In this document: piece by piece, positions 30,098-58,886 of the stretch
Position numbering within the stretch: position 1 is the stretch's first letter
Layout of the letters: each line of letters opens with the position of its first letter
NCBI RefSeq assembly: GCF_026627925.1
Contig: NZ_JAPNLE010000007.1
Location: forward strand, 124,001 to 188,000
From: Cupriavidus sp. D39
GTDB lineage: Bacteria > Pseudomonadota > Gammaproteobacteria > Burkholderiales > Burkholderiaceae
Length of the DNA stretch: 64,000 nt
Direction: 5' to 3'
Notes under the pieces: model-generated
Database searches by the model: none
What the model saw: only the letters and a program-made list of their open reading frames with translations
What the model was told of the DNA's origin: nothing
Program-made: the position numbers and the translations under genes

Positions 30098-31735
30098 ATG
30101 AATAGGAGCAACAACGTTCGGTGCGCGGCCCTGGCGCCGCGGGCCATGGTGGTGGCCCTGGCCCTGGCATATGGCGGGAGCGCTGCAGCATTCGAAGTCG
30201 ATACGGGCAACACGGATTTCAAGCTGCGTTGGGACAACACCGTGCGCTACAACCTGGGCATGCGGATGGAAGGGCAGGACTCCAGGCTGCTGTCCAACCC
30301 GACCTACGACGAGTCGGACAGCAAGTTTGGCAAGCACTCGATCGTCACCAACCGCGTCGATCTGTTGAGCGAAGCCGACGCCAACTATAAAGGCCAGGTA
30401 GGTGCGCGCATCAGCGCCTCCGGCTGGTACGACGACGCCTACAGCGACCGCTCGGTCAAATCGCCCGCAGGCTTCCCGACCAGCTATTTCGGCAACAACT
30501 ACAACGCGCAGGTCGGGCGCTACATGAACGGGCCGTCGGGCGAGTTGCTGGATGCTTTTGCCTGGTCCAACTTCAACCTTGGCGATGTGCCGGTCAACGT
30601 CAAGGTGGGTCGGCACGCGCTCTCATGGGGCGAGGGCTTGTTGATTGGCGCGCACGCCATTTCGTATTCGCAGGCGCCGATCGACGGCGTGAAAGCGGTC
30701 AACAGCCCCGGCATCGAGACCAAGGAGGTCTTCCTGCCTCTGGGCCAGGTTTCGTTCAAGGCTCAGGTCACCGACAAGATCTCGTTGTTCGGCCAGTACT
30801 TCTACGAGTGGAAGCCGACGCGCGTTCCCTACGGTGGCACCTACCTGATGGGCGCGGATACGGCACCCTATGTCGATCGCGTTGGCGTGAGCCCCACCGC
30901 GTCCCTGAACAACGCGGGCGGCGGCAAGCCCGGCAACACCGGCAACTGGGGCGTGGGCGCCAAGTTCGACGTGGACCCGATCGATTCGAAGATCGGTGTC
31001 TACTATCGCCGCTTCAATGACTACACGCCGGAGACCGGTATTCAGCTCCTGCCGAACGGACAGTTCCGCTTCGACTATGCACAGGATGTGGAGTTGTACG
31101 GCCTGAGCTTCTCGCGCCAGTTTGGCTCCGTGATCGTCGGCTCCGACCTGTCGATGCGCAAGAACACGCACCTGAACTCGGCGACCACGATGACGACCGA
31201 TACCGGCGCGCGCGGCGATACCTTGCACTGGGTGGTCAACGGCATGTACGGCCTGCCCAAGACGCCGCTGTGGGACACTGGCGTGCTGGTGGCCGAGTTC
31301 GCTTATAGCCATCTGCTCAAGATCACCAAGAACGAGAACCTCTACCGGGGCGAAGGCTATAAGGGTTGCGAAACCACCGCGACGCCCAATGCCTGCTCGA
31401 CCAACAACTTCTACCAGCTAGCCCTGAATTTCACGCCGCAGTACTTCGCCGTCTTTGCCGGCTGGGACCTGAGCGTCCCGCTCACGGTCAACTGGGGCAT
31501 CAAGGGCAAGGCGCCCACCGGCGGCGGCGGCTTCGAGAAGGTGGTGTCCTATTCCGTCGGCGTAACCGCGACCTATCACTCCAAGTACGAATTTGGCCTG
31601 CGTTATTCCGACATGTTCGTGCCGACCCGCTACAACTCAGCAGGTACTACCGCGGTGGGTGGCGGCGCGCTCAACAGCGCCGTGGGGGCCACCGACCGCG
31701 GCTGGCTGGTCCTAACTTTCAAGACGGCCTTCTAA
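30098..31735 (+). CDS. DUF1302 family outer-membrane protein
   Basis: A 545-residue protein. A signal peptide (MNRSNNVRCAALAPRAMVVA, cleavage around AAAFEVD) is followed by FEVDTGNTDFKLRWDNTVRY, the DUF1302 opening. Alternating beta strands end in WLVLTFKTAF with a C-terminal Phe typical of outer-membrane barrels. The start at 30098 is supported by GGATGGAG about ten bases before it. DUF1302 proteins are next to DUF1329 proteins and RND transporters in clusters that handle hydrophobic substrates (steroids, fatty acids, aromatics), so it probably forms an uptake or export channel. First gene of the operon. Confidence 0.88.
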   Translation: MNRSNNVRCAALAPRAMVVALALAYGGSAAAFEVDTGNTDFKLRWDNTVRYNLGMRMEGQDSRLLSNPTYDESDSKFGKHSIVTNRVDLLSEADANYKGQVGARISASGWYDDAYSDRSVKSPAGFPTSYFGNNYNAQVGRYMNGPSGELLDAFAWSNFNLGDVPVNVKVGRHALSWGEGLLIGAHAISYSQAPIDGVKAVNSPGIETKEVFLPLGQVSFKAQVTDKISLFGQYFYEWKPTRVPYGGTYLMGADTAPYVDRVGVSPTASLNNAGGGKPGNTGNWGVGAKFDVDPIDSKIGVYYRRFNDYTPETGIQLLPNGQFRFDYAQDVELYGLSFSRQFGSVIVGSDLSMRKNTHLNSATTMTTDTGARGDTLHWVVNGMYGLPKTPLWDTGVLVAEFAYSHLLKITKNENLYRGEGYKGCETTATPNACSTNNFYQLALNFTPQYFAVFAGWDLSVPLTVNWGIKGKAPTGGGGFEKVVSYSVGVTATYHSKYEFGLRYSDMFVPTRYNSAGTTAVGGGALNSAVGATDRGWLVLTFKTAF

Positions 31736-31770
31736 GGCCGCTCTCTCGCAACAACAGACAGGAGACCCTG

Positions 31771-33138
31771 ATGAAACTGCACTATGCAATCTGCGCTGCC
31801 TTGATCGGTGCCAGCGGCGGTGCCATGGCGGCCGTGTCGGCTGACGAAGCCAAGCAACTCGGCACGACATTGACCGAGTTCGGCGCCGTCAAGGCCGGTA
31901 ATGCCGATGGCACGATCCCGGCTTATACCGGCGGCCTGACCAAGGCGCCCGCCGACTACAAGCCGGACAGCGGCTTCTGGCCCGACCCGTACAAGGACGA
32001 GAAGCCCTTGTTCCGCATCGACGCGAAGAACGTCGACAAGTACGCTGCCAAGCTTAGCGAAGGGCAGAAGCACCTGATCAAGAAGAATCCCGGCACGTAC
32101 TACATCGACGTCTACCCGACGCACCGCAGCGCGGCCTTTCCGGAAAAGATCCTGAAGGCGACCGTGCGCAACGCCACCGGATGCCAGACCATCAAGGATG
32201 GCCTGGCGATCGAGAGGGCTTGCCGCGGCGGCATGCCGTTCCCGATCCCCAAGACCGGCAATGAAGTGATGTGGGACCACATCCTGCGTTATATGGGGGA
32301 CACCGCCATGGTCTCCAACCATGGCTCGACCTGGGTGGTCGATTCCTCGGGCAAGCCGACCCAGGCCTCGGAACAGTACACATTCCAGGACTATGTCTAC
32401 TACCAGGTCGACCAGGCCGATCGCGACCCGGACATGATCTGGCGCACTTACTCCAACAACAAGGTGCCCGCGCGCCGCGCCGGCGAGATGACCGGCCTGA
32501 TCGACTACCTCGACCCGGTCGACAAGCCGCGAAAGGCCTGGAACTACCAGCCGGGCCAGCGCCGCGTGAAGCAATCCCCGGAGTTCGCATATGACACGCC
32601 GGTAGGCAGCATGGGCGGCGTGACGCTGTTCGACGAACTGTTCGTCTTCACCGGCAAGCAGGACCGCTTCGATTTCAAGCTGGTCGGCAAGAAGGAGATG
32701 TACATCCCCTACAACAGCTACAAGATGTACAACAGCTGCACGTCCGAGGACGCATTGCAGCCCAAGCACGTCAATCCGGCGTGCGAACGCTGGGAGCTGC
32801 ATCGCGTGTGGGTGGTCGAGGCGACGCTGAAGCCGGGCCAGCGTCACGTGTACTCCAAGCGCACCTACTACTTTGACGAAGACTGGTCTGGCGCATCGCT
32901 CTATGACGCGTTCGACCAGTCCGGCGAACTGTACCGGGCGCTGTTCCAGGGAACCATCCAGCTCTTCGGCAAAAACCTCCAGCCGTATGGCGTGAAGAAC
33001 ACGATCTACGACTTCAACAAGGGGATCTACGCCTATATCAATGATGCGTCGAAGTCCGGCTACTTTGTCCAGCCCTCGCGATTGAGCGAGCGCGAGCTCA
33101 ATCCCGAGGCCGTGGTAGCACGCGAGACCGCGCGTTGA
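31771..33138 (+). CDS. DUF1329 family periplasmic protein (LolA/LolB-like fold)
   Basis: A 455-residue protein with a signal peptide (MKLHYAICAALIGASGGAMA) cut before AVSADEAKQL. The DUF1329 body begins LGTTLTEFGAVKAGNADGTI and contains PAYTGGL and the conserved GMPFPIPKTGNEVMWDHILRYM and MYIPYNSYKMY segments. It lies 35 bp after the DUF1302 gene with AGGAG ten bases before ATG. The fold is related to lipoprotein carriers, so it may ferry a lipid-like molecule across the periplasm between the RND pump and the DUF1302 channel (inference). Confidence 0.9.
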   Translation: MKLHYAICAALIGASGGAMAAVSADEAKQLGTTLTEFGAVKAGNADGTIPAYTGGLTKAPADYKPDSGFWPDPYKDEKPLFRIDAKNVDKYAAKLSEGQKHLIKKNPGTYYIDVYPTHRSAAFPEKILKATVRNATGCQTIKDGLAIERACRGGMPFPIPKTGNEVMWDHILRYMGDTAMVSNHGSTWVVDSSGKPTQASEQYTFQDYVYYQVDQADRDPDMIWRTYSNNKVPARRAGEMTGLIDYLDPVDKPRKAWNYQPGQRRVKQSPEFAYDTPVGSMGGVTLFDELFVFTGKQDRFDFKLVGKKEMYIPYNSYKMYNSCTSEDALQPKHVNPACERWELHRVWVVEATLKPGQRHVYSKRTYYFDEDWSGASLYDAFDQSGELYRALFQGTIQLFGKNLQPYGVKNTIYDFNKGIYAYINDASKSGYFVQPSRLSERELNPEAVVARETAR

Positions 33139-33166
33139 TGCCCCGCCATTGACCAGGAGCCGCAAC

Positions 33167-34312
33167 GTGCAACCACTGCCTAGTTCCCTTGCCGCGCCAG
33201 AAGGGGCGCGATCCTCGCGCCGCCTCCCGTGGCGGCTGGCGGCTGCGCTTGGCGTCCTGGCTGCCCTGGGCGTCTATGCTAGCGAGAGCGTCCAGTACGC
33301 CCCGATGCGCGACGTGCTCGACCTACCTGTCCAACCAGGCAAGCTTAACAAGCGCGCTACCGCTAGCAGCGTGGCCCGGGAGGGCAAGCGGCTGGTAGCT
33401 GTTGGTCCGCGCGGCTTCATTGCGCTGTCTATCGACGGCGGCGCGCATTGGAGCCAGGTTGGCAGTCCGGTGCAGTCCGACCTGGTTTCGGTGAAGTTCA
33501 GCGGCGCGGGTATCGTCTGGGCCGTGGGGCACGACGCCGTCGCGCTGCGCAGCACGGACGGCGGCGCAAGCTGGCAGCGCGTGCTGGATGGGCGCGCGCT
33601 GCTCAAGCTGCTGCGCCAGCACTATGCTGAGGGCGCCGGCGCGCCCGATGCCGGCAAGATCCGCCAGGAGGTGGAGCGCTGGGCGGCGCAGTCGGCCACG
33701 CCGGACGTGCTGCCCACGCCGTTCTTCGATGCGTCGTTCACCGATGCCAACGAGGGCTTCCTGGTTGGCGCGTTCGGGCTGATCTTGCGCACCGGTGACG
33801 GTGGCAAGACCTGGACGCCCTGGATGGAGCACACCGACAACGACAGCCGGCTGCATCTCTACGCTGTGGCCGGTCACGATGCGCAGCGCTACATCGCCGG
33901 CGAGCAGGGGCTGCTGCTGAAGCTCGACCGCGCGAGCGACCGCTTCGTCAAGGTAAGCACGCCTTACGAAGGCAGCTTCTTCGGCCTGGATGCCAGCCCG
34001 GGCCGGCTGCTGGCCTACGGCCTGCGCGGCAATGCCTACATGAGTACGGACGAAGGACTAGCCTGGCACAAGGTCGAAACCGGCATCGACGCCAGCATGG
34101 TGGCCGCCGTGCCCACGGATCCCAAGGGGTTGCTTTTGGTCTCGCAGGCCGGACAGGTGCTTTCGGTTTCCGCCGATGGTCGCAAGGCGGTACCGCTGCA
34201 GGTGCCTTACACCAGCGAAGTGATGGGCGCCACGGCGTCGGAGTCGGGCGCCCTTGTGCTGGCGCTCGTCGACGGTCTGCGCGTAGTCGACATCTTGCCC
34301 TCGGCCCCATGA
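33167..34312 (+). CDS. YCF48/BNR-repeat beta-propeller protein
   Basis: A 381-residue protein from a GTG at 33167, seven bases after AGGAG. A hydrophobic N-terminal segment (RLAAALGVLAALGVYASESV) is a signal anchor or signal peptide. Propeller blades of the BNR/YCF48 type follow: FIALSIDGGAHWSQVG, AVALRSTDGGASWQRVLDG, LILRTGDGGKTWTPWM and NAYMSTDEGLAWHKVE. YCF48-like proteins assist assembly of photosystem II in cyanobacteria; in non-photosynthetic proteobacteria they accompany DUF1329/RND genes, perhaps as a periplasmic adaptor. Placed between DUF1329 and the RND gene, it is likely part of the same transport complex. Confidence 0.85.
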   Translation: MQPLPSSLAAPEGARSSRRLPWRLAAALGVLAALGVYASESVQYAPMRDVLDLPVQPGKLNKRATASSVAREGKRLVAVGPRGFIALSIDGGAHWSQVGSPVQSDLVSVKFSGAGIVWAVGHDAVALRSTDGGASWQRVLDGRALLKLLRQHYAEGAGAPDAGKIRQEVERWAAQSATPDVLPTPFFDASFTDANEGFLVGAFGLILRTGDGGKTWTPWMEHTDNDSRLHLYAVAGHDAQRYIAGEQGLLLKLDRASDRFVKVSTPYEGSFFGLDASPGRLLAYGLRGNAYMSTDEGLAWHKVETGIDASMVAAVPTDPKGLLLVSQAGQVLSVSADGRKAVPLQVPYTSEVMGATASESGALVLALVDGLRVVDILPSAP

Positions 34313-34346
34313 GCGCCGCATCTCGAATTAACCAAGGATCTCAACG

Positions 34347-36809
34347 ATGAGCGCACCCATCGGCAACCCCGCCATGCCGGTCATCCGTGACCTTCGCGAC
34401 TTCGATCCGAAGTCGGGCAATCTGGCGGAACGCTTCATCTTCAACCACCGCGCGGTGGCGCTGGTGTTTTGCCTAGTGGCGACGCTGGTGCTTGGATTGT
34501 TCGCATGGAAGATCCAGGTCAACGCCAGCTTCGAGCGGATGATTCCGTCCTCCAGCCCGTATATCCGCAACTACCTGGACAACAAGGCCGAACTGCCCGG
34601 GCTGGGCAACAGCATCCGCATTGTCGTGGAGAACAAGAGCGGCGACATCTACGACCCGGCCTACCTGGAAACGCTGCGCAAGGTCAACGACACGCTGTAC
34701 CTGATACCGGGCGTGGACCGCTCGTGGATGAAGTCGATCTGGATGCCGAGCGTGCGCTGGCGGCAGGTCACCGAGGAAGGCATCACCGGCGGCGCGGTGA
34801 TGCCTTCCGACTACGACGGCAGCAAGCGGGCCGTCGACCAGCTGAGATCCAATATCGGCCGCGCTGGCGTGGTCGGCAGCCTGGTGGCCAACGACCTGAA
34901 GTCGAGCATGATCGTCACGCCGCTGCTGGAGCGTCACCCAAAGACGGGCGAGCCCCTAAGCTATGGCGAGTTCTCCCAGTCGCTCGAGACCAAGATCCGC
35001 AGCTTCGAGAGCGACCGGGTGGGCGTGCATATTGTTGGCTTTGGCAAGATTGTCGGTGACCTGATCGCCGGACTGAAGCAGGTGATGCTGTTCTTTGGCA
35101 TCTCCGTGCTGGTAGCGGCGGTCTTCGTCTTCGTGTACACGCGCTGTGTGCGCAGCACCGTGCTGCTGGTGACGGTTGCCGTCGCGGGCGTGGTTTGGCT
35201 GCTTGGGCTGATGCAGATCCTGGGCTATGAGCTGGATCCGTATTCGATCCTGGTGCCGTTCCTGATCTTCGCCATCGGCCTTTCGCACGGCGCGCAGAAG
35301 ATGAACGGCATCCTGCAGGACGTAGGCCGCGGCACGCACAAGTACGTGGCGGCGCGCTATACCTTCCGCCGCCTGTTCATGGCGGGACTGACGGCACTGC
35401 TGACGAACATCGTGGGCTTTGCGGTACTGATCATCATTGATATCCCGGTGATCCGCGATCTCGCCATCACGACCAGCATCGGCGTCACGGTGCTGATCTT
35501 TACCAAGCTGGTGCTGATTCCGGTGGCGCTGTCGTATATCGGCGTGAGCCCGGGCGCCGCAAAGCGCGCGCTGGTGGATGAAGGCGAGGTGGCGCAAGGC
35601 AAGGGCCTGCTGGCCAGGGTGTGGAAGGGGCTCGACCGGCTGACCGAGCGCCGGGCGGCGCTTGCGGTCATCAGCGTGACTGCGGTGCTGACGGTGGTCA
35701 GTGCGTTCGTGATGCGCGACCTGCGCATCGGCGACCTGGATCCCGGCGCGCCGGAGTTGCGCACCGAGTCGCGCTACAACCGCGACAACGCCTATATCAC
35801 CCAGCACTACGGGTTATCGAGCGACCAGTTCGTGGTGATCATGAAGACCGCCGAGGATGGCTGCCGCTACTACGAATCCCTGCAACTGATGGACCGCCTG
35901 GCGCAACGCCTGCGCCAGACCCCCGGCGTGCAGGGCACCAGCTCGCTGGCCGAGACCACGCGCTTCATCACCGCCGGCCTGGCCGAAGGCAATGGCAAAT
36001 GGATGACGCTCAGCCGCGACCAGCAGATCACCAACGCGGCGGTCTCCGCGGCGATGATCGCCACGCCCGATATCACCAATCGGGATTGCTCGGTCACGCC
36101 GCTGATTGCCTATCTTGGCGACCACAAGGCCGACACCCTGGCCCGCGTGCTGCGCACGGCCAATGACTTCGCGCTGCAGAACAATACCCCGGCGGATGCC
36201 AAGAAGCCCACGCGCTTCCTGCTTGCCGCCGGCAGCGCGGGCATCGAGGCGGCTACCAATATCGAGGTCGAGCACGGCATCGTCACCATGTACCTCGCGG
36301 TGTATGGCGCCACCGCCTTGCTTTGCCTGCTGACCTTCCGGAGCATCCGCGCCACGCTGGTGGCCATGATCCCGCTGGTCATTACCACCGTCCTGTGCAA
36401 GGCGCTGATGGTATGGCTGGGCATCGGCCTGAAAGTGGCCACGCTGCCGGTGATCGCGGTCGGGGTGGGTGTGGGCGTGGACTATGCGCTGTACCTGCTC
36501 AGCGTCCAGATCGCCATGCAGCGGCGCGGCGCCACGCTGGCGCAGGCCTACCGGCGCTCGCTCGATTTCACCGGCCGCGTGGTCGCGCTGATCGGGCTGA
36601 CGATGGCAGCCGGGGTGATCACCTGGGTCTGGTCGCCCATCAAGTTCCAGGCCGACATGGGCATCCTGCTGACGTTCATGTTCCTGTGGAACATGCTTGG
36701 CGCGCTGATCCTGATTCCCGCGTTGTCGCATTTCCTGCTCAATCCGAAGCCGCCCGTGCCGGCTCCCGCGCCGCAACCGCGGCCGCAGCCGCATCACGTG
36801 GCCAACTGA
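34347..36809 (+). CDS. RND-superfamily (MMPL-type) transporter
   Basis: An 820-residue inner-membrane protein with twofold internal symmetry: a first helix (AVALVFCLVATLVLGLFAWK), a periplasmic loop, helices around residues 235-400 (QVMLFFGISVLVAAVFVFVY; VPFLIFAIGLSHGAQKMNGI), a second periplasmic loop and helices around 640-805 (LPVIAVGVGVGVDYALYLLS). GLSHGAQKMNG and GVDYALYLL are the charged/polar helix-4 motifs of the MMPL/HpnN class. The Pro-rich tail ends PQPRPQPHHVAN. Driven by proton motive force, relatives move lipids and hydrophobic compounds. AAGGATCTC precedes the ATG. With the previous three genes it forms a trans-envelope set. Confidence 0.92.
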   Translation: MSAPIGNPAMPVIRDLRDFDPKSGNLAERFIFNHRAVALVFCLVATLVLGLFAWKIQVNASFERMIPSSSPYIRNYLDNKAELPGLGNSIRIVVENKSGDIYDPAYLETLRKVNDTLYLIPGVDRSWMKSIWMPSVRWRQVTEEGITGGAVMPSDYDGSKRAVDQLRSNIGRAGVVGSLVANDLKSSMIVTPLLERHPKTGEPLSYGEFSQSLETKIRSFESDRVGVHIVGFGKIVGDLIAGLKQVMLFFGISVLVAAVFVFVYTRCVRSTVLLVTVAVAGVVWLLGLMQILGYELDPYSILVPFLIFAIGLSHGAQKMNGILQDVGRGTHKYVAARYTFRRLFMAGLTALLTNIVGFAVLIIIDIPVIRDLAITTSIGVTVLIFTKLVLIPVALSYIGVSPGAAKRALVDEGEVAQGKGLLARVWKGLDRLTERRAALAVISVTAVLTVVSAFVMRDLRIGDLDPGAPELRTESRYNRDNAYITQHYGLSSDQFVVIMKTAEDGCRYYESLQLMDRLAQRLRQTPGVQGTSSLAETTRFITAGLAEGNGKWMTLSRDQQITNAAVSAAMIATPDITNRDCSVTPLIAYLGDHKADTLARVLRTANDFALQNNTPADAKKPTRFLLAAGSAGIEAATNIEVEHGIVTMYLAVYGATALLCLLTFRSIRATLVAMIPLVITTVLCKALMVWLGIGLKVATLPVIAVGVGVGVDYALYLLSVQIAMQRRGATLAQAYRRSLDFTGRVVALIGLTMAAGVITWVWSPIKFQADMGILLTFMFLWNMLGALILIPALSHFLLNPKPPVPAPAPQPRPQPHHVAN

Positions 36810-36837
36810 CTATCCCTGAAAACGACTGGAGAGAACA

Positions 36838-37803
36838 ATGTTCGATTTGCTGATGAGCGCCGACATGATGATGCCGGACCCGGATGGCATGACGGAACTG
36901 CTGGTGGCCAAGCTTGGCATCCACAGCCACCCGCGCTGGCGCCAGGCGTTCGATGACCATCCCTACATCGCGCACTTCCTGCGCGTGCACAAGTCGCTGG
37001 CCATCTCGCCGACCCGCATCGAGCCGCAATGGCACCTCGACAGGCCGAACCAAGGCGACCCGATGTTCCACACCTTCCTGGATAGCCTGAAGGCGTACCA
37101 GGGCGAGCACCGCCCGATGCTGACGCACTCCATCGTGCTGACCCTGCCCAGCGAGCGCCTGGCCGTGCTGGTGGACAAGCTGATGCGCCGCAAGTTGCGC
37201 TTCCGGCTGGCGCAGCGCACGCCGGACATGCCGTTCGACAGGCTGTGGCTTGGCGTCACGCCGGAGGATCCTCACTATGAGCCGTCCGTGGACGGTGGCC
37301 TGTGCATCGAGGTGATGGCAAACGAGCCGCTGCAACTGCCGCCCGAGACGTTTACCGTACCCGCGCCGCAAGTGGTCAACCCGGAGCCGGGCCAGATGAT
37401 CCGCGTGTCCGCGCGCGGCTACCTGGTGCGGGACCTGGACGAAACCCTGCGCCTCGTCTCCGCCAATCTCGACTGGGAGCCCAGCGGCCCGGTGCAGGAA
37501 CTGACCAAGGAAGGCTACCGCAAGGCGACCATGAAATGCGCGCTGGCCAATAGCGCCACGCTGGACGTGATCGAGGCCACGCGCTGGAACAGCGATGCCG
37601 GCCTTTACCTGAATTCCTGGGGCCCCGGCCCGTACTACATTCGCATCGCGGTGAACGGGCTGGCGGCCAAGGCGGAAGACCTGCGCGCGCGCGGCACCCG
37701 CTTCACCTGGATCGAGGAATGCGAAGCCGTGGGCGGCAAGTCGCTGATCCGGGTCGATCCGGCGGACGTGCGCGGCCAGTTGTTTGAATTCCACGAGTTG
37801 TGA
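36838..37803 (+). CDS. VOC (glyoxalase/dioxygenase fold) family protein
   Basis: A 321-residue cytoplasmic protein. The C-terminal half has the VOC-like segments LDVIEATRWNSDAGLYLNSW, GPYYIRIAVNGLAAKAEDLR and RVDPADVRGQLFEFHE, the last ending with the metal-binding Glu pattern of extradiol dioxygenase-like folds. The N-terminal half (MFDLLMSADMMMPDPDGMTE) is a second, weaker VOC module. The family includes isomerases, epimerases and ring-cleavage dioxygenases, so the exact reaction is open. Within the operon it follows the RND gene by 28 bp and overlaps the enoyl-CoA hydratase start. Confidence 0.8.
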   Translation: MFDLLMSADMMMPDPDGMTELLVAKLGIHSHPRWRQAFDDHPYIAHFLRVHKSLAISPTRIEPQWHLDRPNQGDPMFHTFLDSLKAYQGEHRPMLTHSIVLTLPSERLAVLVDKLMRRKLRFRLAQRTPDMPFDRLWLGVTPEDPHYEPSVDGGLCIEVMANEPLQLPPETFTVPAPQVVNPEPGQMIRVSARGYLVRDLDETLRLVSANLDWEPSGPVQELTKEGYRKATMKCALANSATLDVIEATRWNSDAGLYLNSWGPGPYYIRIAVNGLAAKAEDLRARGTRFTWIEECEAVGGKSLIRVDPADVRGQLFEFHEL

Positions 37804-37808
37804 GCATC

Positions 37809-38654
37809 ATGAAAGCCATCAGCGAAAGCGAGGCCAAGGCGGCATCGGGTGCCGCACTGCCAGGGGCCGCCACGGAGCCGGCGGTACGGCTGGAACGCGA
37901 AGGCAGGATCGGCTGGATCGTGCTGAACCGGCCGGGGCAGATCAATGCCATCAACGACGAGATCCGGCGCGGTGTGCCGCTGGCCCTGGCCGAGTTGGAT
38001 GCCGACCCCGGTATCGGCGTGATCGTGATCCGCGGCGAGGGCGATCGGGGCTTCTGCGCCGGTGCCGACATCAAGGAGCGGCGCGGCGACGAGACCTCGC
38101 TGCAGGTGCGGCGGCGGATGGAACGGGCGCGCTGGATCGAGGCGCTGGACAGCACCGAGAAGCCGGTGATCGCCGCCATCCATGGCTATTGCATGGGCGG
38201 CGGCATGGAGCTGGCGCTGGCGTGCGATATCCGCTTTGCCTCGCCGGATGCCACCTTCGCGCTACCGGAGACCGGACTTGGCCTGATTCCCGGCGGAGGT
38301 GGCACGCAACGCCTGCCCCGCCTGGTTGGGCACGGCACAGCGATGGACCTGCTGCTGACGGGCGAGCGCATGACCGCCGTGCAGGCACGGGACATCGGCT
38401 TGCTGACGCGCATCGCCAGCGCAAACGATCAACTGTTGGTGGAAGTGCGCGCCCTGGCAACGCGCATCGCCGCCCGGCCTCCTATGGCCACCGCATTCGC
38501 TAAGCAAGCCACGCGTGCGGCGAGCCGCGTGGACCTGAAGAGCGGCCTCGACCTGGAGCTGGAATTGTTCTCGCTGCTGGCGCCGATGCAGGACGTCAGA
38601 GAAGCAGCGCAAGCCTTCAGCGAGAAGCGCCCGCCGCAGTTCTCGGGCCATTAA
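37809..38654 (+). CDS. Enoyl-CoA hydratase/isomerase family protein
   Basis: A 281-residue crotonase. The oxyanion-hole segments are RGFCAGADIKERRGDE and AIHGYCMGGGMELALACDIR; the catalytic Glu region is FALPETGLGLIPGGGGTQRL. The start may also be the GTG at 37800, which overlaps the preceding stop. Residues 1-30 are extra compared with the usual 260-residue family and probably disordered. It hydrates trans-2-enoyl-CoA in beta-oxidation of a side chain or dicarboxyl-CoA intermediate. Translationally coupled to the VOC gene. Confidence 0.92.
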   Translation: MKAISESEAKAASGAALPGAATEPAVRLEREGRIGWIVLNRPGQINAINDEIRRGVPLALAELDADPGIGVIVIRGEGDRGFCAGADIKERRGDETSLQVRRRMERARWIEALDSTEKPVIAAIHGYCMGGGMELALACDIRFASPDATFALPETGLGLIPGGGGTQRLPRLVGHGTAMDLLLTGERMTAVQARDIGLLTRIASANDQLLVEVRALATRIAARPPMATAFAKQATRAASRVDLKSGLDLELELFSLLAPMQDVREAAQAFSEKRPPQFSGH

Positions 38655-38671
38655 AAAACAAGGAGCAGGAA

Positions 38672-39502
38672 ATGGCACAGGAAAAACTGGCCGGCAAGGT
38701 AGCGATTGTGACCGGCGCGGGCAACGGCCTCGGCGCTGATTGCGCCAAGGTCCTGGCCGGGCACGGCGCCAAGGTGGCGGTCGTGGATATCAACTTCGGC
38801 GCGGCCCAGGAAGTGGCGGCCAAGATCGAGGCGCAGGGTGGGCAGGCGATGGCCGTCAAGGCCGATGTGAGTGTCGAGGACGAGATCAAGGCGATGGTCG
38901 CCGCGGTCGACGGGCGCTGGGGCCGTATCGACGTGCTTCACAACAACGCCGCGGCGCTGGACTTGAAGACACGCTACGCGGACCGCGACGTCTGCAACGT
39001 GGAGGTAGAGGCCTGGGACCGCTCGATGAACGTCAATGCGCGCGGCGCCATGCTGTGCTGCAAGCACGTGATCCCGGTGATGCTGCGCGGCGGCAACGGG
39101 TCGATCATCCACAGCTCATCGGGATTCGGGGTGATGGGCGATGCCACGCTGACGTCCTATGCTTGCTCCAAGGCAGCGCTGCTTGCGCTGAGCCGCATGG
39201 TGGCGGCTCAGTACGGCAAGCAGGGCATCCGCTCGAATGCCATTGTCATCGGCTTCGTGCTTAACGAGCATGCACAGAAGGAAGTGGCGGACGAGATCAA
39301 GCAGATCCTGCTGGACCAGCATTTGACGCCGGCGCTGGGCAGCCCGCGCCAGATCGCCGATGTGGTGGCTTTCCTTGCCAGCGAGGAATCCTCCTTCGTC
39401 ACCGGCCACGCCATGATGGTGGACGGCGGCTTTACCAGCCACGCACCGTCGCTGGTGCCGATCCGGCAATTCTTCGAGCGCAAGGGCGATAACAAATGGT
39501 GA
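38672..39502 (+). CDS. SDR-family oxidoreductase
   Basis: A 276-residue classical short-chain dehydrogenase. The cofactor motif TGAGNGLG is at residues 14-21, acid VDINFG after beta-2 suggests NAD(H), NNAAA follows beta-4, the catalytic Ser lies in IIHSSSGFGV and the Tyr-x-x-x-Lys is YACSK. MMVDGGFTSHAP closes the domain, and a 12-residue tail follows. AAGGAGCAGG precedes the ATG. It probably oxidises a hydroxyl group formed by the hydratase or by ring hydroxylation. Confidence 0.93.
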   Translation: MAQEKLAGKVAIVTGAGNGLGADCAKVLAGHGAKVAVVDINFGAAQEVAAKIEAQGGQAMAVKADVSVEDEIKAMVAAVDGRWGRIDVLHNNAAALDLKTRYADRDVCNVEVEAWDRSMNVNARGAMLCCKHVIPVMLRGGNGSIIHSSSGFGVMGDATLTSYACSKAALLALSRMVAAQYGKQGIRSNAIVIGFVLNEHAQKEVADEIKQILLDQHLTPALGSPRQIADVVAFLASEESSFVTGHAMMVDGGFTSHAPSLVPIRQFFERKGDNKW

Positions 39503-46804: not shown

Positions 46805-47794
46805 GTGCTTAAGGCCGTGCTCAACGTTGCGCCGCGCGGGGCAATTTCCGCTGTCATCGCCGCGCTCGGCGCGGCCCTCGCCACCGGCACAACGGCCGCC
46901 GCGTATCCGGCCAGGCTGATTACGTTCGTGGTGCCCTTCACCGCGGGCGCCGGTCCGGATGTGTTCGTGCGGGCCATCGCACAGGAGGTGGCAAGGGCCA
47001 CCGGCGTGCCGGCCATCGTGGAAAACCGGCCCGGCGCCGGCTCGGCGCTGGCCGCCCAGACCGTGGCCAAGGCCAGGCCGGACGGCTACACCGTGCTGGT
47101 CACGGGGAACGTGGCGTTCACGGGCAACCTCTACACGCTCAAGAAACTGGCGTATGACCCGGTGGCGGGTTTCACGCCGGTGACGACTTTGGCCAAAGGG
47201 CCGATGTATCTCTACACGAACCCGCAGAAGCTGCCGGTGGCGAATATCGCCGAGCTGCTGCAACTGATACGCAAGAACCCGGGCAAGTACTCGTTCGGCT
47301 ACACCAGCATCACCAGCCGCTTGCCGGCGGAGGTGTTGCAGCAGTCGGTGGGGCTCAGGATCCTCGGCGTGCCGTACCGCAGCGGCGCGGCCGCCGTGCC
47401 GGATCTGGTCGGTGGCCAGATCGACATGATGTTCACGGACTTCGCTCCCTGGCCGCACGTGGCGTCGGGCAAGCTGCGGGCGATGGCCGTCACCGACCCG
47501 AAGCGTAGCCCTTACGCACCGAAGCTGCCCACCTTCGAAGAGTCCGGCGTCAAGGGCATGAACATTGGCTTCTGGCTCGCCGCCTACCTGCCCGCGGGTG
47601 CTTCCCCGCAGGTGGTGACGCAGCTCCAGGGGCTGCTGGCCAAGGCGGTCAGGACATCCGAGGTCAAGAGCGTCTACCAGGCCACCGGCACGTTCGAGTT
47701 TGTCGTCCCAGGCACGGAAATGGCGAAGTTCCAGGCGAATGAAAGCGCGGCCTGGGGGCGGATCATCCGCGCCGCCGGCATCCAGCCGGAGTAG
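46805..47794 (+). CDS. Bug-family (TctC-like) periplasmic solute-binding protein
   Basis: A 329-residue protein from a GTG at 46805. The signal peptide (RGAISAVIAALGAALATGTT, cut near AAAYPAR) and the family segments PARLITFVVPFTAGAGPDVF, PAIVENRPGAGSALAAQTVA, PYRSGAAAVPDLVGGQIDMM and FEESGVKGMNIGFWLA are all present. Bug receptors bind carboxylated small molecules; no TctAB membrane genes are in the window, so it may be an orphan receptor or feed a distant transporter. Very many paralogues are a hallmark of Cupriavidus and Bordetella. Confidence 0.94.
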   Translation: MLKAVLNVAPRGAISAVIAALGAALATGTTAAAYPARLITFVVPFTAGAGPDVFVRAIAQEVARATGVPAIVENRPGAGSALAAQTVAKARPDGYTVLVTGNVAFTGNLYTLKKLAYDPVAGFTPVTTLAKGPMYLYTNPQKLPVANIAELLQLIRKNPGKYSFGYTSITSRLPAEVLQQSVGLRILGVPYRSGAAAVPDLVGGQIDMMFTDFAPWPHVASGKLRAMAVTDPKRSPYAPKLPTFEESGVKGMNIGFWLAAYLPAGASPQVVTQLQGLLAKAVRTSEVKSVYQATGTFEFVVPGTEMAKFQANESAAWGRIIRAAGIQPE

Positions 47795-47855
47795 GGCGGC
47801 CCATGCGCAGGCACGAACGCACGAATCGAAAGCGACAGGAACGGAGACACAGGCA

Positions 47856-48592
47856 ATGAACGAACTGGATTTCTCGAACAAGACAGTGCTGGTGGTGGGC
47901 GGCTCCAGCGGCATCGGCAATGGCATTGCCCATGCCTTTCGCGAACGCGGCGCCGCCGTGCACGTGTGGGGCACCCGTGCATCGGCCCTCGATTACACGG
48001 ACTCTCCGGACTCCCGCCTGGACGGATTGGGTTACACCCAGGTCGACGTGTCGGACGCGGCCAATATCGAGCGATGCGCGCTGCCATTCGACCGGCTCGA
48101 CGTGCTGGTGCAAGCGCAGGGTACCGTGCTTTACGACCGCCAGGAGTTCAAGACGCCGGGCTTCAGGAAGGTGCTCGACATCAACCTGACCAGCCTGATG
48201 GCCTGCGCCGACAAATGCTACGGGCCGTTGAGGAGGCGCGTGGCGCCATGATCGTGGTCAGCTCCGCCGCGGCGTTTCACTCCACCCGTGGCAATCCGGC
48301 CTACAACGCCTCCAAGACCGGCGCCTTTGGCCTGACCCGCACGCTCGGCGAGGCCTGGGCGCGCGAAGGCATCCGCGTCAACGGCATCGCGCCGGGCCTG
48401 GTCGATACCAAGCTGACCCGCGTCACGATCGGCAATCCGAAACGGTTGGAGGGCGCGCTGCGCAACATCCCGCTGGGGCGCCTGGGTACGCCGCAAGACA
48501 TGGCAGGCGCGGCGCTGTTCCTGGCGTCGCCGCTCTCGGCCTATGTGCTTGGCCAGACCCTGTTGGTGGACGGCGGCATGTTGCTGGCCTGA
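47856..48592 (+). pseudogene. SDR-family oxidoreductase, one frameshift
   Basis: The ATG at 47856 gives MNELDFSNKTVLVVGGSSGI (cofactor motif GGSSGIG) and continues to LMACADKCYG. One G is missing in a G run near 48228. The frame then resumes as VEEARGAMIVVSSAAAFHST, with the catalytic Tyr-x-x-x-Lys YNASK, and ends LVDGGMLLA. About 245 residues, normal for the family. Directly followed by the acyl-CoA dehydrogenase gene. Confidence 0.85.
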
Positions 48593-48616
48593 TGCGCACT
48601 CGATAAAGGAAGCAGC

Positions 48617-49890
48617 ATGTCTTGGGAATTTGAAACCGATGCCGGGTTCCAGGCCGAACTCGACTGGATCGAGGCCTTCGTCCGTGATGAGGTCGAACCG
48701 CTGGAGCACGTGCTGGGCAGCCCGTGGGATATCCACGACCCGAGGTTCCAGGCGCTGGTGCGGCCCCTGCAGCAGCAGGTCAAGGCGCGCAAGCTGTGGG
48801 CCTGCCACCTCGGCCCTGAACTGGGCGGCGCCGGCTATGGCCAGGTCAAGCTGGCGCTGATGAATGAGATCCTGGGCCGCGCGCTGTTCGCGCCCATCGT
48901 CTTTGGCTGCCAGGCGCCCGACTCCGGCAATGCGGAAATCCTCGCGCACTACGGCACCGCCGAGCAAAAGCAACGCTTCCTGGCGCCGCTGCTCGCCGGC
49001 GAGATCGTGTCGTGCTTCGCCATGACGGAGCCGCAGGGCGGCGCCGATCCCAAGGTGTTCACCACCAGCGTCGTGCGCGACGGCGATGACTGGGTGATCA
49101 GCGGGCAGAAGTGGTTTGCCTCCAACGCGCGCTACGCGGACTTTTCATCGTGATGGCGATCACCGACCCGGAGGTTTCTGCCTACAAGGGCATGTCGATG
49201 TTCATCGTGCCGGCGGGTACGCCTGGGCTGAACATCATCCGCAACGTGGGTATGGCCGATGAGCCGGCGGCGACGCATGCCTATCTGGAGTTTGACAGCG
49301 TGCGCGTGCCGGCCAACCACATGCTGGGCGCGCCGGGCGAGGCCTTCGTGGTGGCGCAAGTGCGCCTGGGCGGCGGCCGTGTGCATCACGCGATGCGCAC
49401 CATCGGCCTGGCGCAGAAGGCGCTCGATGCGCTGTGCCAGCGCGCGTTGTCGCGCCAGACGCAAGGCGGGCTGCTGGCGGACAAGCAGATGGTTCAGGAG
49501 AAGATCGCCGATTCCTGGCTGGAGCTGGAGCAGTTCCGCCTGCTGGTGATGCGCACCGCGTGGCGCATCGACAAGTACCAGGACTACCAGAAGGTGCGCA
49601 AGGACATCGCCGCGGTAAAGGCCGCGATGCCCAAGCTGCTGCACGATATTGCCGCGCGGGCGCTGCACGTGCACGGCTCCATCGGCACCTCGACAGAGAT
49701 GCCTTTCGCCGGCATGATCTCGCGCGCGTTCCAGATGGGCCTTGCCGACGGCCCCACGGAAGTGCACAAGGTCACGGTGGCCAGGCAGTTGCTGCGCGAG
49801 TACCAGCCCTGCGAGGACCTGTTCCCGGCCTATCACCGCCCCACGGCGGCAGTGGCGGCGCAGAAGAAGTTTCGCGCACAGCTCAGCTGA
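48617..49890 (+). pseudogene. Acyl-CoA dehydrogenase, one frameshift
   Basis: The ATG at 48617 (MSWEFETDAGFQAELDWIEA) leads through KLWACHLGPELGGAGYGQVK and the substrate/FAD segment CFAMTEPQGGADPKVFTTSV to KWFASNARYADF. One T is missing in a T run near 49142 and the rest (IVMAITDPEVSAYKGMSMFI to QKKFRAQLS) is in another frame. The C-terminal helix LHVHGSIGTSTEMPF and the final FAD contact are kept. About 424 residues. It resembles the long class (ACAD10/11, LvaC-like) found beside APH-type kinases, and such a kinase gene follows directly. Confidence 0.88.
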
Positions 49891-52741: not shown

Positions 52742-53764
52742 ATGCTGATCGACATCCACGCCCATCTATTCACCCCCGCATGCTCAAGTGCCATGAATTC
52801 TGGGGCCCGTTCATGAAGACCAAGGGCCTGACCGTGGGGCATTTCTCGCTGGGCACGACCCAGCCGTCCAAGGCAAAGGACGACGACGAAGCCGAGGCCA
52901 ATCTGCTGGCGCGCATGACGCACGCCGCGCGCCGCAAGCTGATGGCTGAGCGCGGTGTGGACAAACTGGTGCTGTCCACGCCTTCGCACGCTTTCATGTA
53001 CTGGGCCGGAGAATTCGGCACGGAGTACGCGCGGATCTGCAACGATGAACTCTCCGCCTTCTGCGCGGAGGATCCCGATCATTTCGATTTCTGGGCGCAT
53101 GCCAACCTGGCTCGCCCGGCGGATGCCGTGAAGGAGATCGAGCGCGCCGTGACCCAGCTCGGCGCCAAGGGCCTGTGCGTGGGGGGCTAACTTTGACGGG
53201 CTGGAGGCGCATAGCGAGGAGCTGTTCCCGGTGTGGGAGAAGCTGCAGCAGCTCGACGTGCCGATCATGGTGCATGGCTTCAACCAGTCCATCTACTGGG
53301 GCGAGAAGCACACCGACGACAAGTTCGAGACCACCTCGATCGTCGGCGATTGCTTCGACGAAACGCTCTTCTTCTGGAATCTGATCAACGGTGGCGCACT
53401 GGACGCGTTCCCGCAGCTCAAGACCTACATCACCCACGCGGGCGGCATGGCGGTATTCCAACTGGGCCGGTTGCACGACCTGAACCGGGTCATGGCACCG
53501 GATTCGCGCAACCAGCGCCCGCTGATGGATTATCTGCCGAACTTCTACTTCGACCTCGATATCCACACGCCCGGACTGCGCCGTGGCGTGGTGGAAGTCG
53601 TCGGCGTCGACAACCTCGTCTACGGCACCAACTTCGGCGGCGCCTACGATCATGGCGATCCGACCGAAGGCCTTGGCCTGTCCAATGCGGACCGCGAGAA
53701 GATCCGCAGCGGCAACGCCATCAAGCTGCTCAAGCTCGATGTGAAAGCGCCGGTTGCGGTCTGA
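52742..53764 (+). pseudogene. Amidohydrolase family (ACMSD/decarboxylase-like) protein, two frameshifts
   Basis: After GGAGGAG the ATG at 52742 gives MLIDIHAHLFTP with the metal-binding HxH. One C is missing in a C run near 52780, and the frame resumes RMLKCHEFWGPFMKTKGLTV. An extra G in a G run near 53187 shifts it again, and the rest (ANFDGLEAHSEELFPVWEKL, VPIMVHGFNQSIYWG, KTYITHAGGMAVFQLGRL, GVDNLVYGTNFGGAYDHGDP) is in a third frame. Metal/catalytic His and Asp positions of the amidohydrolase_2 fold are present. Relatives decarboxylate aromatic acids or 2-amino-3-carboxymuconate semialdehyde. About 340 residues. Confidence 0.85.
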
Positions 53765-53792: not shown

Positions 53793-54734
53793 ATGACAAA
53801 CGGTAGCTGGTGGGCAGTCGCGCTCTCCGAATCGGTCAGCGGGACGAAGCCCCTCGCGGTAGTCTGTAACGGACAAGAGTTGGTGGTCTACCGCGACGCG
53901 GCGGGCGATCTGTTCTCGCTGGAGGACCGGTGCCCGCACCGACGGGTGCCGTTGTCGCTGGGTACCGTCAAGCCCGGCGGCCTGCAGTGCGGCTATCACG
54001 GCTGGACCTTCGATGGTGCCACCGGAGCCTGCCTGGAGATTCCCAACTTGCATGCGGGCGAGCGGGTGCCGGCACGCTACGGCGCGAGGGCCTTCCGCGT
54101 GGCCGAGCGTAACGGCTTCGTCCATGTCTGGCTGGGAGAGGGCAGTCCCGATGGCGAGTTGCCTGCGGCGGCGTCCAAGCCGGGCGGGCGCGAGTTCACC
54201 GGCTCGGCGATCGTCAGCATCTCGTACGAAGATTACCTGGGCGTGATGCTGGACGGCCCAGAATGCCTGCTTGGTTTTGACGGCGTGCGCATCACGGACT
54301 TCTTCCTTGGCGATCCGCGCGTTGAGGGCACGCACCTGGTGCTCGAACGCGGTGCGGTCTGGAAGACGGCGATGCTGCCGCCTGCTTTCGTCACCGATCA
54401 CCCCCTCATCGTACGTACCGCCGTGCCTCTGGCCGGCGGCATGATTCGTGTCGATTTGCTGGGCGCCGACGAAACGCAGGTGCTTTCGATACGGATTGCC
54501 GCCAGCGCCAACCGGCGCGGCACCACGGGAATCTGCTGGCGCGGGTTCAAGCTCGGCAATGCACTGCGCGCAGCGCCGCGGCGCTGGCGCGCGGCGCGCG
54601 CGGCCGGCCGTGCGCCGTTCGCGCTGCTCGACAAGATCGACGGCGCGGCAATTGCCGCGCTGCTGGTCGCGCCATCGCGCGATCTTGCGGCTGCCCGCGC
54701 CGAGCGCGCTGCCTCTATGGATTCGGCGGCGTGA
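53793..54734 (+). CDS. Rieske oxygenase-like protein with Rieske cluster but altered catalytic iron site
   Basis: A 313-residue protein from the ATG at 53793. The Rieske domain is intact: Cys47-x-His49 in RCPHRRVPLS and Cys66-x2-His69 in CGYHGWTF. In the catalytic domain the position of the N-x2-D-x2-H-x4-H iron motif reads MLDGPECLLGF (residues 152-162), so Asp154 remains but the two His ligands are Glu157 and Phe162. It can therefore hold a [2Fe-2S] cluster but probably not the mononuclear iron. The next gene has the opposite set of losses. It probably passes electrons to that partner. Confidence 0.85.
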   Translation: MTNGSWWAVALSESVSGTKPLAVVCNGQELVVYRDAAGDLFSLEDRCPHRRVPLSLGTVKPGGLQCGYHGWTFDGATGACLEIPNLHAGERVPARYGARAFRVAERNGFVHVWLGEGSPDGELPAAASKPGGREFTGSAIVSISYEDYLGVMLDGPECLLGFDGVRITDFFLGDPRVEGTHLVLERGAVWKTAMLPPAFVTDHPLIVRTAVPLAGGMIRVDLLGADETQVLSIRIAASANRRGTTGICWRGFKLGNALRAAPRRWRAARAAGRAPFALLDKIDGAAIAALLVAPSRDLAAARAERAASMDSAA

Positions 54735-54784
54735 GCCAAGGCGCCGAACGGACTGAGATGGCATCGAATGCCAGGAGGATCGCA

Positions 54785-55831
54785 ATGAACGCCACGACAC
54801 TCGCAGCTACCGCGCCCGAGCCCCTGAAGAGCCGGCCGGCAAGACGCGACTGGCTCCCGGCCAACTACGACCTGCGCGACACGTGGTTCCCGGTCTCGCA
54901 TAGCCGCGACGTTACGGAACAGCAGCCGATCCGCCGCATCATCCATTCGCAGCCATATTTCCTCTGGCGCGAGAACGGCCGGCCGATGGCGGGCGAGTTC
55001 CATCCCCATCTGCTGTCAGGCCAGCGCCACCATGCAACGGCTTTCACAGGGGGGACGGGTCTTTACCCTGTGGTCGAGCGCTACGGCTATCTGTGGGTCT
55101 GGTACGGCAACCCGGACCAGGCCGATGCGCTGTTGCTGCCGCATATTCCCTTTCTGCCGCTGGATGGCAGCCTGCCGGGCTATACGCAGCGGACCGTCCG
55201 CTTCGATGCCGCATCCGCGCTGTCCGTGGAAAACCTGATCGATCTCACCCACGCGGATTTCCTGCATGCGGGGACCATCGGCGATGGCATTTCGGAGTCC
55301 GACGTAGTCGAGGTGGAATGGACCTCGGAGACCGTCACGCGCACCCGCACCGTGACCAAGAAATCGGTCGCACCGATCATGCGCTGGGTGGGCGGCGTGC
55401 GCGCCCGTTACCAGGACTTTCGCGCCGTGCTGCACGTCCATCTGCGCAGCAATGTCTGCATTTCCTATCCCCGCTTCCGGCCGGGCTACGATGTGCCCAA
55501 CCTGCAGCCCTTCCTGCCGGTGGGGCGGTACCGCTCACGCTGCGACGTCACCTTCAATACCACCGCGGCGCCCGTGCCTCTGCGCTACGTGATGCCGCGC
55601 ATCGCTTTTGTGATCCAGCCGCAGGACAATTCTGTGGTGCGCCCGCAAAACCAGCGCTATTTCGACCCGGATCAACCGCTGGACCTGCATTCGCGCTTCG
55701 ACACGCCCGGCACGCGCTACCGCTTCCAGATGGAGCAACTGGCGGCCCGGCAGCGCCGTGGTGATTTCTCCTACGGCGCGGATGCCGATCCGGGCCGCGA
55801 TATCAGCGGCCTGCTGGGGATGCTGGACTGA
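54785..55831 (+). CDS. Rieske oxygenase-like protein with catalytic iron site but no Rieske cluster
   Basis: A 348-residue protein from the ATG at 54785; AGGAG is ten bases upstream. The N-terminal half keeps the fold text of a ring-hydroxylating oxygenase (LRDTWFPVSHSRDV, VVERYGYLWVWYGNP) but has no Cys at all before about residue 230, so the [2Fe-2S] ligands are gone. The mononuclear iron motif is perfect: N150-x2-D153-x2-H156-x4-H161 in VENLIDLTHADFLHAGTI. It would need electrons from another protein's cluster; the upstream gene product is the obvious donor. Last gene of the operon, 16 bp from a convergent gene end. Confidence 0.87.
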   Translation: MNATTLAATAPEPLKSRPARRDWLPANYDLRDTWFPVSHSRDVTEQQPIRRIIHSQPYFLWRENGRPMAGEFHPHLLSGQRHHATAFTGGTGLYPVVERYGYLWVWYGNPDQADALLLPHIPFLPLDGSLPGYTQRTVRFDAASALSVENLIDLTHADFLHAGTIGDGISESDVVEVEWTSETVTRTRTVTKKSVAPIMRWVGGVRARYQDFRAVLHVHLRSNVCISYPRFRPGYDVPNLQPFLPVGRYRSRCDVTFNTTAAPVPLRYVMPRIAFVIQPQDNSVVRPQNQRYFDPDQPLDLHSRFDTPGTRYRFQMEQLAARQRRGDFSYGADADPGRDISGLLGMLD

Positions 55832-57626: not shown

Positions 57627-58232
57627 CTAGAGCGGCGCGAAGCCCAGCGCTTGGCGGAAGCGGTTCTTCACATAGACACCGTCGCGCGGGGGCAGGGCGC
57701 GTGGCAGTTCATCGGCTTTCACATGAACCTGGGCGAAGCTCAGTCCGGCGCGTGCGTTGATGCGTGCCCCCAGTTCCTCCACGCCGTCCACGTGGTGGAT
57801 CTCGCTGGCTTGCTCGATGCCGCAAGCCTTCGCCACCTGCGCCAGCCGCGTGCCAAGGCTGGTGTGGCTGCGCTGCATGCCGGTCTCGCCAAAGTGGCCA
57901 TTGTCGAGCGCCACCAGGGTGAGGTTGGGTGGCTGCTGTGCACCCGCGGTGGCGAGGCTGCCGATGCCCATCAACTGCTCGCCGTCACCAGTGATCGCCA
58001 CGACGGGGCGCTCCGGTTGCGCAAGTGCGAGCCCCAGCGACATTGCGGTCGAGCCGCCCATAGCGCCCCACAGGTAGAAATAGCGGTCGGTATCGCCGGC
58101 AGCGAACACGTCGTAGCTGGGCGAGCCCAGGCCCGTGACGACCAGAGCGTCCGGGCACAGTGCCAGAAGCCTGGCCACGAACTCGCGGCGATCAATGGTG
58201 GCGGCGGTTTGCTTGTTGGCTTGCATGTTCAT
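57627..58232 (-). CDS. ThDP-dependent decarboxylase, C-terminal (PP-domain) subunit
   Basis: A 201-residue protein from the ATG at 58232 (MNMQANKQTAATIDRREFVA). The thiamine diphosphate/Mg motif is GDGEQL...LVALDN (from VVAITGDGEQLMGIGSLATA to LTLVALDNGHFGETG). It lacks the PYR domain, which is encoded by the overlapping upstream gene, the layout of sulfopyruvate/phosphonopyruvate decarboxylases (ComD/ComE type). Decarboxylates a 2-oxo acid; the substrate is unknown. The ATG overlaps the alpha-subunit stop (ATGA). Confidence 0.88.
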   Translation of the reverse strand: MNMQANKQTAATIDRREFVARLLALCPDALVVTGLGSPSYDVFAAGDTDRYFYLWGAMGGSTAMSLGLALAQPERPVVAITGDGEQLMGIGSLATAGAQQPPNLTLVALDNGHFGETGMQRSHTSLGTRLAQVAKACGIEQASEIHHVDGVEELGARINARAGLSFAQVHVKADELPRALPPRDGVYVKNRFRQALGFAPL

Positions 58233-58765
58233 TTGCGTTCCCACTTCTTGCGCCCGATCAGGCGTTGCGACAGCAGCACAGCGACTTGCTGGCCGCCTTC
58301 GAAAGCGGCATCCAGTCCGGCGGAGACCAGATCCTCGACTTCCTCGGGGGTCGAGGCGCGCAGTACGGTGATGCCCATCAGTTCCAGCGCCGCCTGCGTG
58401 GCCTGGCCCATGGGGCATTGCCACGGATTGAACTCCGCGTATTCGCCGCGCATAGTCACCAGTGTGAGGAACGGAAAGCGGCAGCCGCGCAGCAGCGAGA
58501 ACATATTGACGCAGTTGCCCACGCCGCTGCTCTGCATCAGCAGCACGGCGCGCTGGCCACCAAGCCACGCCCCGCTGACCAGCGCCACGCCTTCTTCCTC
58601 GGTGGTTAGCACGATGTCGCGCATCTGGGGATCGGCCTGGGCGCTGCGGATCACGTGTGAGTGGCCCGCGTCGGGTACGTAGGCGACCTGGCGGACGCCG
58701 CCTTCCTTCAGGACGGAGAAGATATTCTCCTGCCAGCCTGGTGCTGGCGAGTGGGTTGTGCTCAT
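58229..58765 (-). CDS. ThDP-dependent decarboxylase, N-terminal (PYR-domain) subunit
   Basis: A 178-residue protein. The start at 58765 (MSTTHSPAPGWQENIFSVLK) has GGAGAC three bases upstream; an ATG further up lacks a signal. It contains VAYVPDAGHSHVIRSAQADP and the catalytic Glu of the PYR domain in VLTTEEEGVALVSGAWLGGQ, then LLMQSSGVGNCVNMFSLLRG. The active site forms between this and the next subunit. Separate genes for the two halves are less common than fused enzymes. Confidence 0.87.
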   Translation of the reverse strand: MSTTHSPAPGWQENIFSVLKEGGVRQVAYVPDAGHSHVIRSAQADPQMRDIVLTTEEEGVALVSGAWLGGQRAVLLMQSSGVGNCVNMFSLLRGCRFPFLTLVTMRGEYAEFNPWQCPMGQATQAALELMGITVLRASTPEEVEDLVSAGLDAAFEGGQQVAVLLSQRLIGRKKWERK

Positions 58766-58886
58766 GTCTCCTCTGGCTTCGTTTGGTTGTGCTTGGGTGT
58801 AGAGCAATCGTAAGCGTTGATCCATGCCGATCTCAAATAACAAACATTGCTGGACGCATCAGCTTTCGTTATGTAGCCGGTTTGGC

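Follow-up and report, generated by a model that had tools for sequence, protein, structure and literature searches.

Gene pair A/B and its protein domains

Within the window, by which we mean the whole 64,000-nucleotide stretch of Cupriavidus sp. D39 DNA analyzed here, two genes for Rieske-type proteins, termed A and B, follow each other on the same strand (Table 1). Read from the ATG at 53793, A contains the pairs C47-x-H49 and C66-x2-H69, with Glu157 and Phe162 at the positions where the iron-binding histidines are expected. The iron-site sequence in B is NLIDLTHADFLH. A re-reading of the sequence bore out the coordinates and residues that had been given for both genes in an earlier, sequence-only reading. 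This reading had also stated that B is free of cysteine in its N-terminal 230 residues; the cysteine-free stretch comprises 224 residues counted from the ATG at 54785, and 242 counted from an alternative GTG start at 54731 that overlaps the stop of A. Of the two starts, ATG 54785 is the better one, with AGGAGG found six bases upstream.

Table 1. Positions of the A/B gene pair, its metal-site residues and the neighboring gene in the window
Feature	Position	Strand	Evidence
Subunit A, Rieske protein, catalytic-type domain without the two iron-binding His, 313 aa	53793..54734	+	PF00355, 75.4 bits
Subunit B, catalytic-iron oxygenase subunit without Rieske cluster, 348 aa	54785..55831	+	PF19112 VanA_C, 101.9 bits
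Cluster ligands of A: Cys47, His49, Cys66, His69	53931..53999	+	invariant, 31/31 A
Former iron site of A: V151 replaces N, Asp154 kept, E157 and F162 replace the two His	54243..54278	+	Asp in 31/31 A
AGGAGG, likely ribosome-binding site of B, 6 bases before ATG 54785	54773..54778	+	sequence
Iron site of B: Asn150, Asp153, His156, His161	55232..55267	+	invariant, 32/32 B
Asp281 of B, likely third iron ligand	55625..55627	+	32/32 B; aligns with Asp of 63/63 intact oxygenases
Amidohydrolase_2 gene directly 5' of A, broken by two frame shifts in the assembly	52743..53764	+	domain match and comparison with G038

In Pfam scans A matched Rieske models, PF00355 being listed in Table 1 and PF13806 remaining below the cut-off, and no reductase domain was detected in it. 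The sole Pfam match of B was the VanA-type catalytic domain, with the whole VanA_C model covered, and a Rieske domain was not detected. In NCBIfam both proteins share their best relative, a model of 4beta-methylsterol monooxygenase, at scores far below threshold for both: the match covers residues 9–130 of A with 72.5 bits against a cut-off of 600, and residues 111–180 of B, around the iron motif, with 32.1 bits. Comparison with PHROGs gave no match.

The predicted structure of A shows a Rieske-oxygenase fold with a mean pLDDT of 82.4 (19 of the 31 A rows used). Foldseek searches with this model returned GxtA, DdmC, KshA and others with E-values of 3e-16 to 7e-13, TM-scores of 0.44–0.68 and rmsd values of 4–12 angstrom among the 50 matches listed; given this range of rmsd the orientation of the domains in the model is uncertain. 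The AlphaFold model of B reached a pLDDT of only 36.3 (18 of the 32 B rows used). Profile-profile alignment joins A and B over the N-terminal domain only (101 columns, probability 88%). In this alignment the domain of B corresponds to the Rieske domain of A, but B lacks the second cluster loop and carries no ligands in the first.

Ligand conservation and distribution of the pair

Ligands were counted over 31 A and 32 B proteins, leaving out L090 and L091. The cluster ligands of A proved invariant, which agrees with the sequence-only reading, where the C-x-H...C-x2-H motif had been described as kept and the two histidines as replaced by Glu157 and Phe162. Across the 31 A proteins the first iron-histidine position, 157, is occupied by Glu (12), His (9), Asp (4), Asn (2), Gln (2) or Ser (2), and the second, 162, by Phe (24), Ile (6) or Leu (1) and in no case by His; a complete iron motif was found in none of them. 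The bridging Asp154 of A (54252–54254) is kept in 31/31 although the iron-binding His pair is gone, which is unexplained unless borders between A subunits exist. In B, Asn150, Asp153, His156, His161, Asp281 and Gln288 are invariant in 32/32 proteins, and the perfect N-x2-D-x2-H-x4-H motif that had been read from the sequence was confirmed, its four residues being among the invariant ones.

When aligned with 63 intact oxygenases, A and B fall into one register; these references had been picked for having both motifs, show the ligand columns by construction and serve only as a register. In this alignment the four cluster columns are gaps in 32/32 B, while in a smaller alignment with 12 B some proteins carry Pro, Ala, Glu, Asp or Gly at the first two of these columns. 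A CxH...Cx2H string contained in B of G572 is out of register with the cluster columns. Presence or absence of the third-ligand Asp in A depends on the alignment used, with Asp in 12/12 proteins of the smaller and gaps in 31/31 of the larger one. Taken together, the pair holds both the Rieske motif CxH...Cx2H, which A contributes (31/31) and B does not, and the iron motif Nx2Dx2Hx4H with a third carboxylate, which B contributes (32/32) and A does not (motif in 0/31). Homologues with the lost site intact, which according to the sequence-only reading would point to local decay, were not found: none of the 31 A has the iron motif and all 32 B have gaps at the cluster columns.

Scanning one genome per species for B yielded 24 loci with 76–84% identity, from Paraburkholderia, Burkholderia, Polaromonas, an Oxalobacteraceae MAG, Stutzerimonas, Pseudomonas, Halopseudomonas, Marinobacter and two MAGs named to order or class. 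A is located directly 5' of B on the same strand in 23 of the 24 loci, with 58–68% identity in A; the stop of A and the start of B, as chosen, are spaced by -8 to 66 bases. In the remaining locus (L091) lies only the other part of a B whose sequence is divided over two contigs of a single MAG. Among 59 genomes of the same genus the pair was found in one, G038, with 96% identity for B and 91% for A. In a plasmid collection, considering the best 30 of 36 records for B and the best 30 of 655 for A, the four best B matches (45–70% identity over 88–90%) are the same records as the four best A matches (36–63% identity over 77–78%), namely Massilia putida, Novosphingobium resinovorum and two of Croceicoccus marinus. 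The two genes are adjacent in three of these records and the matches lie about 0.3 kb apart in the fourth; the next A record among the matches listed (28.6% identity over 74%) is annotated as an ordinary oxygenase. Adjacent pairs also occur in four more divergent genomes of the window's family (G551, G572, G593 and G788). Conserved adjacency, which the sequence-only reading had proposed to look for, was hence observed in the species-level loci, in G038, on plasmids and in these four genomes, the hosts including both soil and marine bacteria. Recurring in 31 A and 32 B proteins, with the genes adjacent in 23/24 loci, the reciprocal pattern is far beyond chance.

Among 398 genomes of the window's family, B (E ≤ 1e-40) was found in 9 and full-length A (E ≤ 1e-80, a cut chosen in this analysis) in the same 9, three of which are the same assemblies as three of the 24 loci. 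In an even sample of the class B (E ≤ 1e-40) was found in only one of 369 genomes, the window's own, so the distribution of the pair is patchy; in both scans up to five candidates were scored per genome and absence is not absolute. Weaker partial A matches over the Rieske part (E 3e-37 to 9e-33) were obtained in 17 further family genomes. The one examined among these, G690, encodes an intact single-chain oxygenase (L148, 8475–9596) with the iron motif NMLDGAHAVFTH, having MLDG in common with A. In G788 we noticed a second B homologue (L146, 8828–9859), which is 46% identical and has an intact iron site. No A match was found in the 18 kb examined around this copy, and a full A/B pair is present elsewhere in the genome, whose A the second B might share.

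In FastTree trees of 12 A, 12 B and 63 intact oxygenases, A forms one clade and B forms one clade, and the two are not sisters. Trees of the Rieske part and of the catalytic part differ on the neighbors, with mostly modest support there. The nearest neighbor of A in the catalytic-part tree is the intact single-chain oxygenase of G690, which may resemble the ancestor of A. Going by these trees, the pair could have originated either by duplication in place or by two different oxygenases coming together. Over 31 loci the pairwise identities of A correlate with those of B (r = 0.97). For A, dN/dS ranged from 0.14 to 0.36 in seven close pairs, and for B from 0 to 0.15. For the iron-less part of A values of 0.18–0.44 were determined in four of the seven pairs, so selection maintains its empty catalytic-type domain. 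Judging by these comparisons, A and B are a conserved unit that is inherited together.

Ferredoxin genes and catabolic setting

A ferredoxin gene is located divergent to A in 7 of the 24 loci (L077, L079–L082, L088 and L089); for one of these, the Pseudomonas profundi copy, the Fer2 domain (plant-type [2Fe-2S]) was confirmed. Two sphingomonads possess a ferredoxin gene 1.3–2.3 kb upstream. Ferredoxins of about 50–55% identity are encoded in the same wider region of LB400 and of the window's genome, where the copy lies beside a P450, and no Fer2 ferredoxin gene was found within the window itself.

In 10/24 loci and in G038 the same-strand gene ahead of A encodes an amidohydrolase. Both frame shifts of the copy in the window coincide with runs of C or G, near 52775 and 53180, and the copy at the same place in G038 is intact and 91–99% identical by segment; the break reflects either a recent loss or a long-read assembly error. 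Two further genes, encoding an SDR (47700–48592) and an acyl-CoA dehydrogenase (48617–49890), each appear split over two frames, which suggests indel errors or decay of 47700–49890. On the complementary strand at 57627–58843 we noticed a two-subunit TPP enzyme resembling, according to NCBIfam, the alpha and beta subunits of sulfopyruvate or phosphonopyruvate decarboxylase; a gene for an aldehyde dehydrogenase lies close to it.

The pair is part of a large catabolic region in four of the hosts, namely LB400, Massilia, G038 and the strain of the window. Common to these four are genes for DUF1302, DUF1329, YCF48-like, MMPL and glyoxalase-like proteins, a hydratase, an SDR, FAH, 3-hydroxyacyl-CoA dehydrogenase, thiolase, a dioxygenase alpha/beta pair and P450s, without a single overall gene order. 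A block at 30107–39487 of the window (DUF1302, DUF1329, YCF48-like, MMPL, glyoxalase-like, enoyl-CoA hydratase and SDR), whose order is common to Massilia putida, G038 and LB400, is perhaps a transport module of terpenoid- or steroid-like catabolism. In LB400 the pair is carried on the 1.47-Mb replicon at a distance of about 42 kb from the dioxygenase. The resin-acid (dit) cluster of LB400 is an 80-kb stretch of this replicon, and the region holding the pair is possibly this cluster. For LB400, a dit cluster in which ditA1 is essential has been described, and the title of a cited work names two CYP226 P450s (PMC10710418, PMC6891630). Altogether the setting of the pair suggests catabolism of a terpenoid- or steroid-like kind. 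In other hosts the pair has different neighbors, with carboxylase and HMG-CoA-lyase-like genes in Pseudomonas profundi and F420 genes in the sphingomonads, and the substrate may therefore differ between hosts.

Proposed electron path and comparison with known systems

A and B are probably the two halves of one obligate heteromeric Rieske non-heme iron oxygenase, in which the cluster of A feeds the iron of B. An obligate split oxygenase had already been proposed by the sequence-only reading, and at the sequence level adjacency, co-occurrence and purifying selection all speak in favor of it. In the general scheme of the family, as given in a 2025 review, the iron of each subunit receives its electrons from the Rieske cluster of the adjacent one via a conserved Asp (PMC12445004). 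A and B would assemble in the head-to-tail ring usual for Rieske oxygenases, with the [2Fe-2S] cluster of A packing against the catalytic domain of the neighboring B. NAD(P)H would supply the electrons, which a reductase and then a ferredoxin would pass on to A and its cluster; from there they would cross the subunit border via Asp153 of B and reach the iron of B. This iron, presumably held by His156, His161 and Asp281, would activate O2 and oxidize a substrate of the large catabolic cluster, perhaps a polycyclic terpenoid.

Other explanations were weighed against this reading. An ordinary oxygenase tandem could have degenerated locally, or a sequencing error could mimic such a loss, and the genes just 5' of the pair are indeed frame-shifted in this assembly; as 30 further A and 31 further B proteins, encoded in alpha-, beta- and gammaproteobacteria, show the same losses, and dN/dS lies well below 1 in all seven pairs tested, we consider decay and assembly error ruled out. 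B might also be fed by another donor, receiving electrons straight from a ferredoxin or from a reductase that carries a Rieske cluster, as in NdmC/NdmD, and leaving A with a separate or regulatory role. NdmC is described as working with the Rieske cluster on its reductase (PMC4408171), a ferredoxin gene lies nearby in some genomes and one B copy has no adjacent A. However, the genome with this solitary copy also encodes A, the pair is adjacent in 23/24 loci and co-occurs in 9/9 family genomes, and the cluster ligands of A are invariant, which makes another donor quite unlikely.

Alternatively, A and B could form separate homotrimers that stack or meet transiently, A acting as a large Rieske electron carrier for B with no shared ring. 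The bridging Asp is kept in 31/31 A as if A-to-A borders still form, and known oxygenases also assemble as alpha3-alpha'3 hexamers according to the review (PMC12445004). On the other hand, the contact between cluster and iron is made between neighbors within a ring, and in stacked homotrimers no cluster would lie close to the iron of B; moreover, A is predicted to keep an oxygenase fold, which is more than a ferredoxin-like domain. We therefore regard separate homotrimers as unlikely. Counted against the heteromer are the His retained at the first iron position in 9/31 A and Asp154 in 31/31, which a pure electron donor would not obviously need, the B of G788 without an adjacent A, the lack of a Fer2 ferredoxin gene in the window, the profile alignment of A and B over the N-terminal domain only, and the fact that A and B are not sisters in the trees.

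For the heteromeric enzyme, the simplest working unit would be one in which the Rieske face of A abuts the catalytic domain of B. An ordinary oxygenase uses every subunit border, whereas here the A-to-B border alone could work. A three-membered ring would be either A2B or AB2, with one A-to-B border each. A2B would fit better than AB2, because at the A-to-A border Asp154, which is invariant in A, would be placed opposite a Rieske His. We tentatively suggest that complementary loss may have made the enzyme obligately heteromeric, probably as an A2B ring with a single working iron site, in which the A-to-B border would carry electrons and the A-to-A border, held by Asp154 of A, would only stiffen the ring.

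If the split reading is true, the pair would be a natural system with inter-subunit electron transfer as the sole possible route. Rieske oxygenases are thought to pass electrons between subunits and not within them, and one metal site per protein would isolate this step, as cluster and iron could be mutated, titrated and mixed separately. The pair also draws attention to an oxygenase that belongs to catabolic clusters and is unstudied, even though one such region lies in the well-studied LB400.

The principle of a split oxygenase has precedents in NdmC/NdmD and in the two-chain enzyme of Micromonas. NdmC, a non-heme iron oxygenase, has no Rieske cluster of its own and uses that of its partner (PMC4408171). 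One half of the logic of this caffeine N7-demethylase, NdmCDE, is common with A/B. The Rieske domain of NdmD is fused to a reductase and a GST-like protein is needed, whereas the Rieske domain of A is joined to an oxygenase-type domain, on an oxygenase-like subunit that has lost its own iron site. Single-chain Rieske monooxygenases such as DdmC (dicamba monooxygenase), SxtT/GxtA, KshA and NdmA are among the best relatives of A in sequence and fold, and of the four relatives of B with solved structures at E ≤ 1e-5, DdmC and SxtT/GxtA are again part; all these monooxygenases carry both metal sites on one chain, unlike A/B. Vanillate demethylase-type oxygenases have VanA_C in common with the catalytic domain of B, which differs in giving no Rieske domain match. 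In the literature searched, which comprised open-licence papers only and is thus weak evidence of absence, we found papers on these two precedents and no bacterial reciprocal Rieske pair, and the main text of the 2025 Rieske-family review, in its available part, makes no mention of NdmC or Micromonas (PMC12445004).

A closer precedent than NdmC/NdmD, absent from the sequence-only reading, is the chlorophyllide a oxygenase of Micromonas. In work of Kunugi from 2013, one chain of this enzyme is said to have the Rieske motif and the other the mononuclear-iron motif, and both chains were reportedly needed for chlorophyll b synthesis in a plant mutant. The enzyme has been described as one Rieske oxygenase in two polypeptide chains (PMC9615114). 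Chlorophyllide a oxygenase was not among the PDB matches (E ≤ 1e-5) or NCBIfam matches of A or B. The Micromonas enzyme is algal and acts on chlorophyllide, whereas A and B are bacterial, with their genes side by side in catabolic-looking settings. By anatomy the two systems are alike, one chain with the cluster and one with the iron, and a complementary split known from one algal enzyme would now be seen in bacteria.
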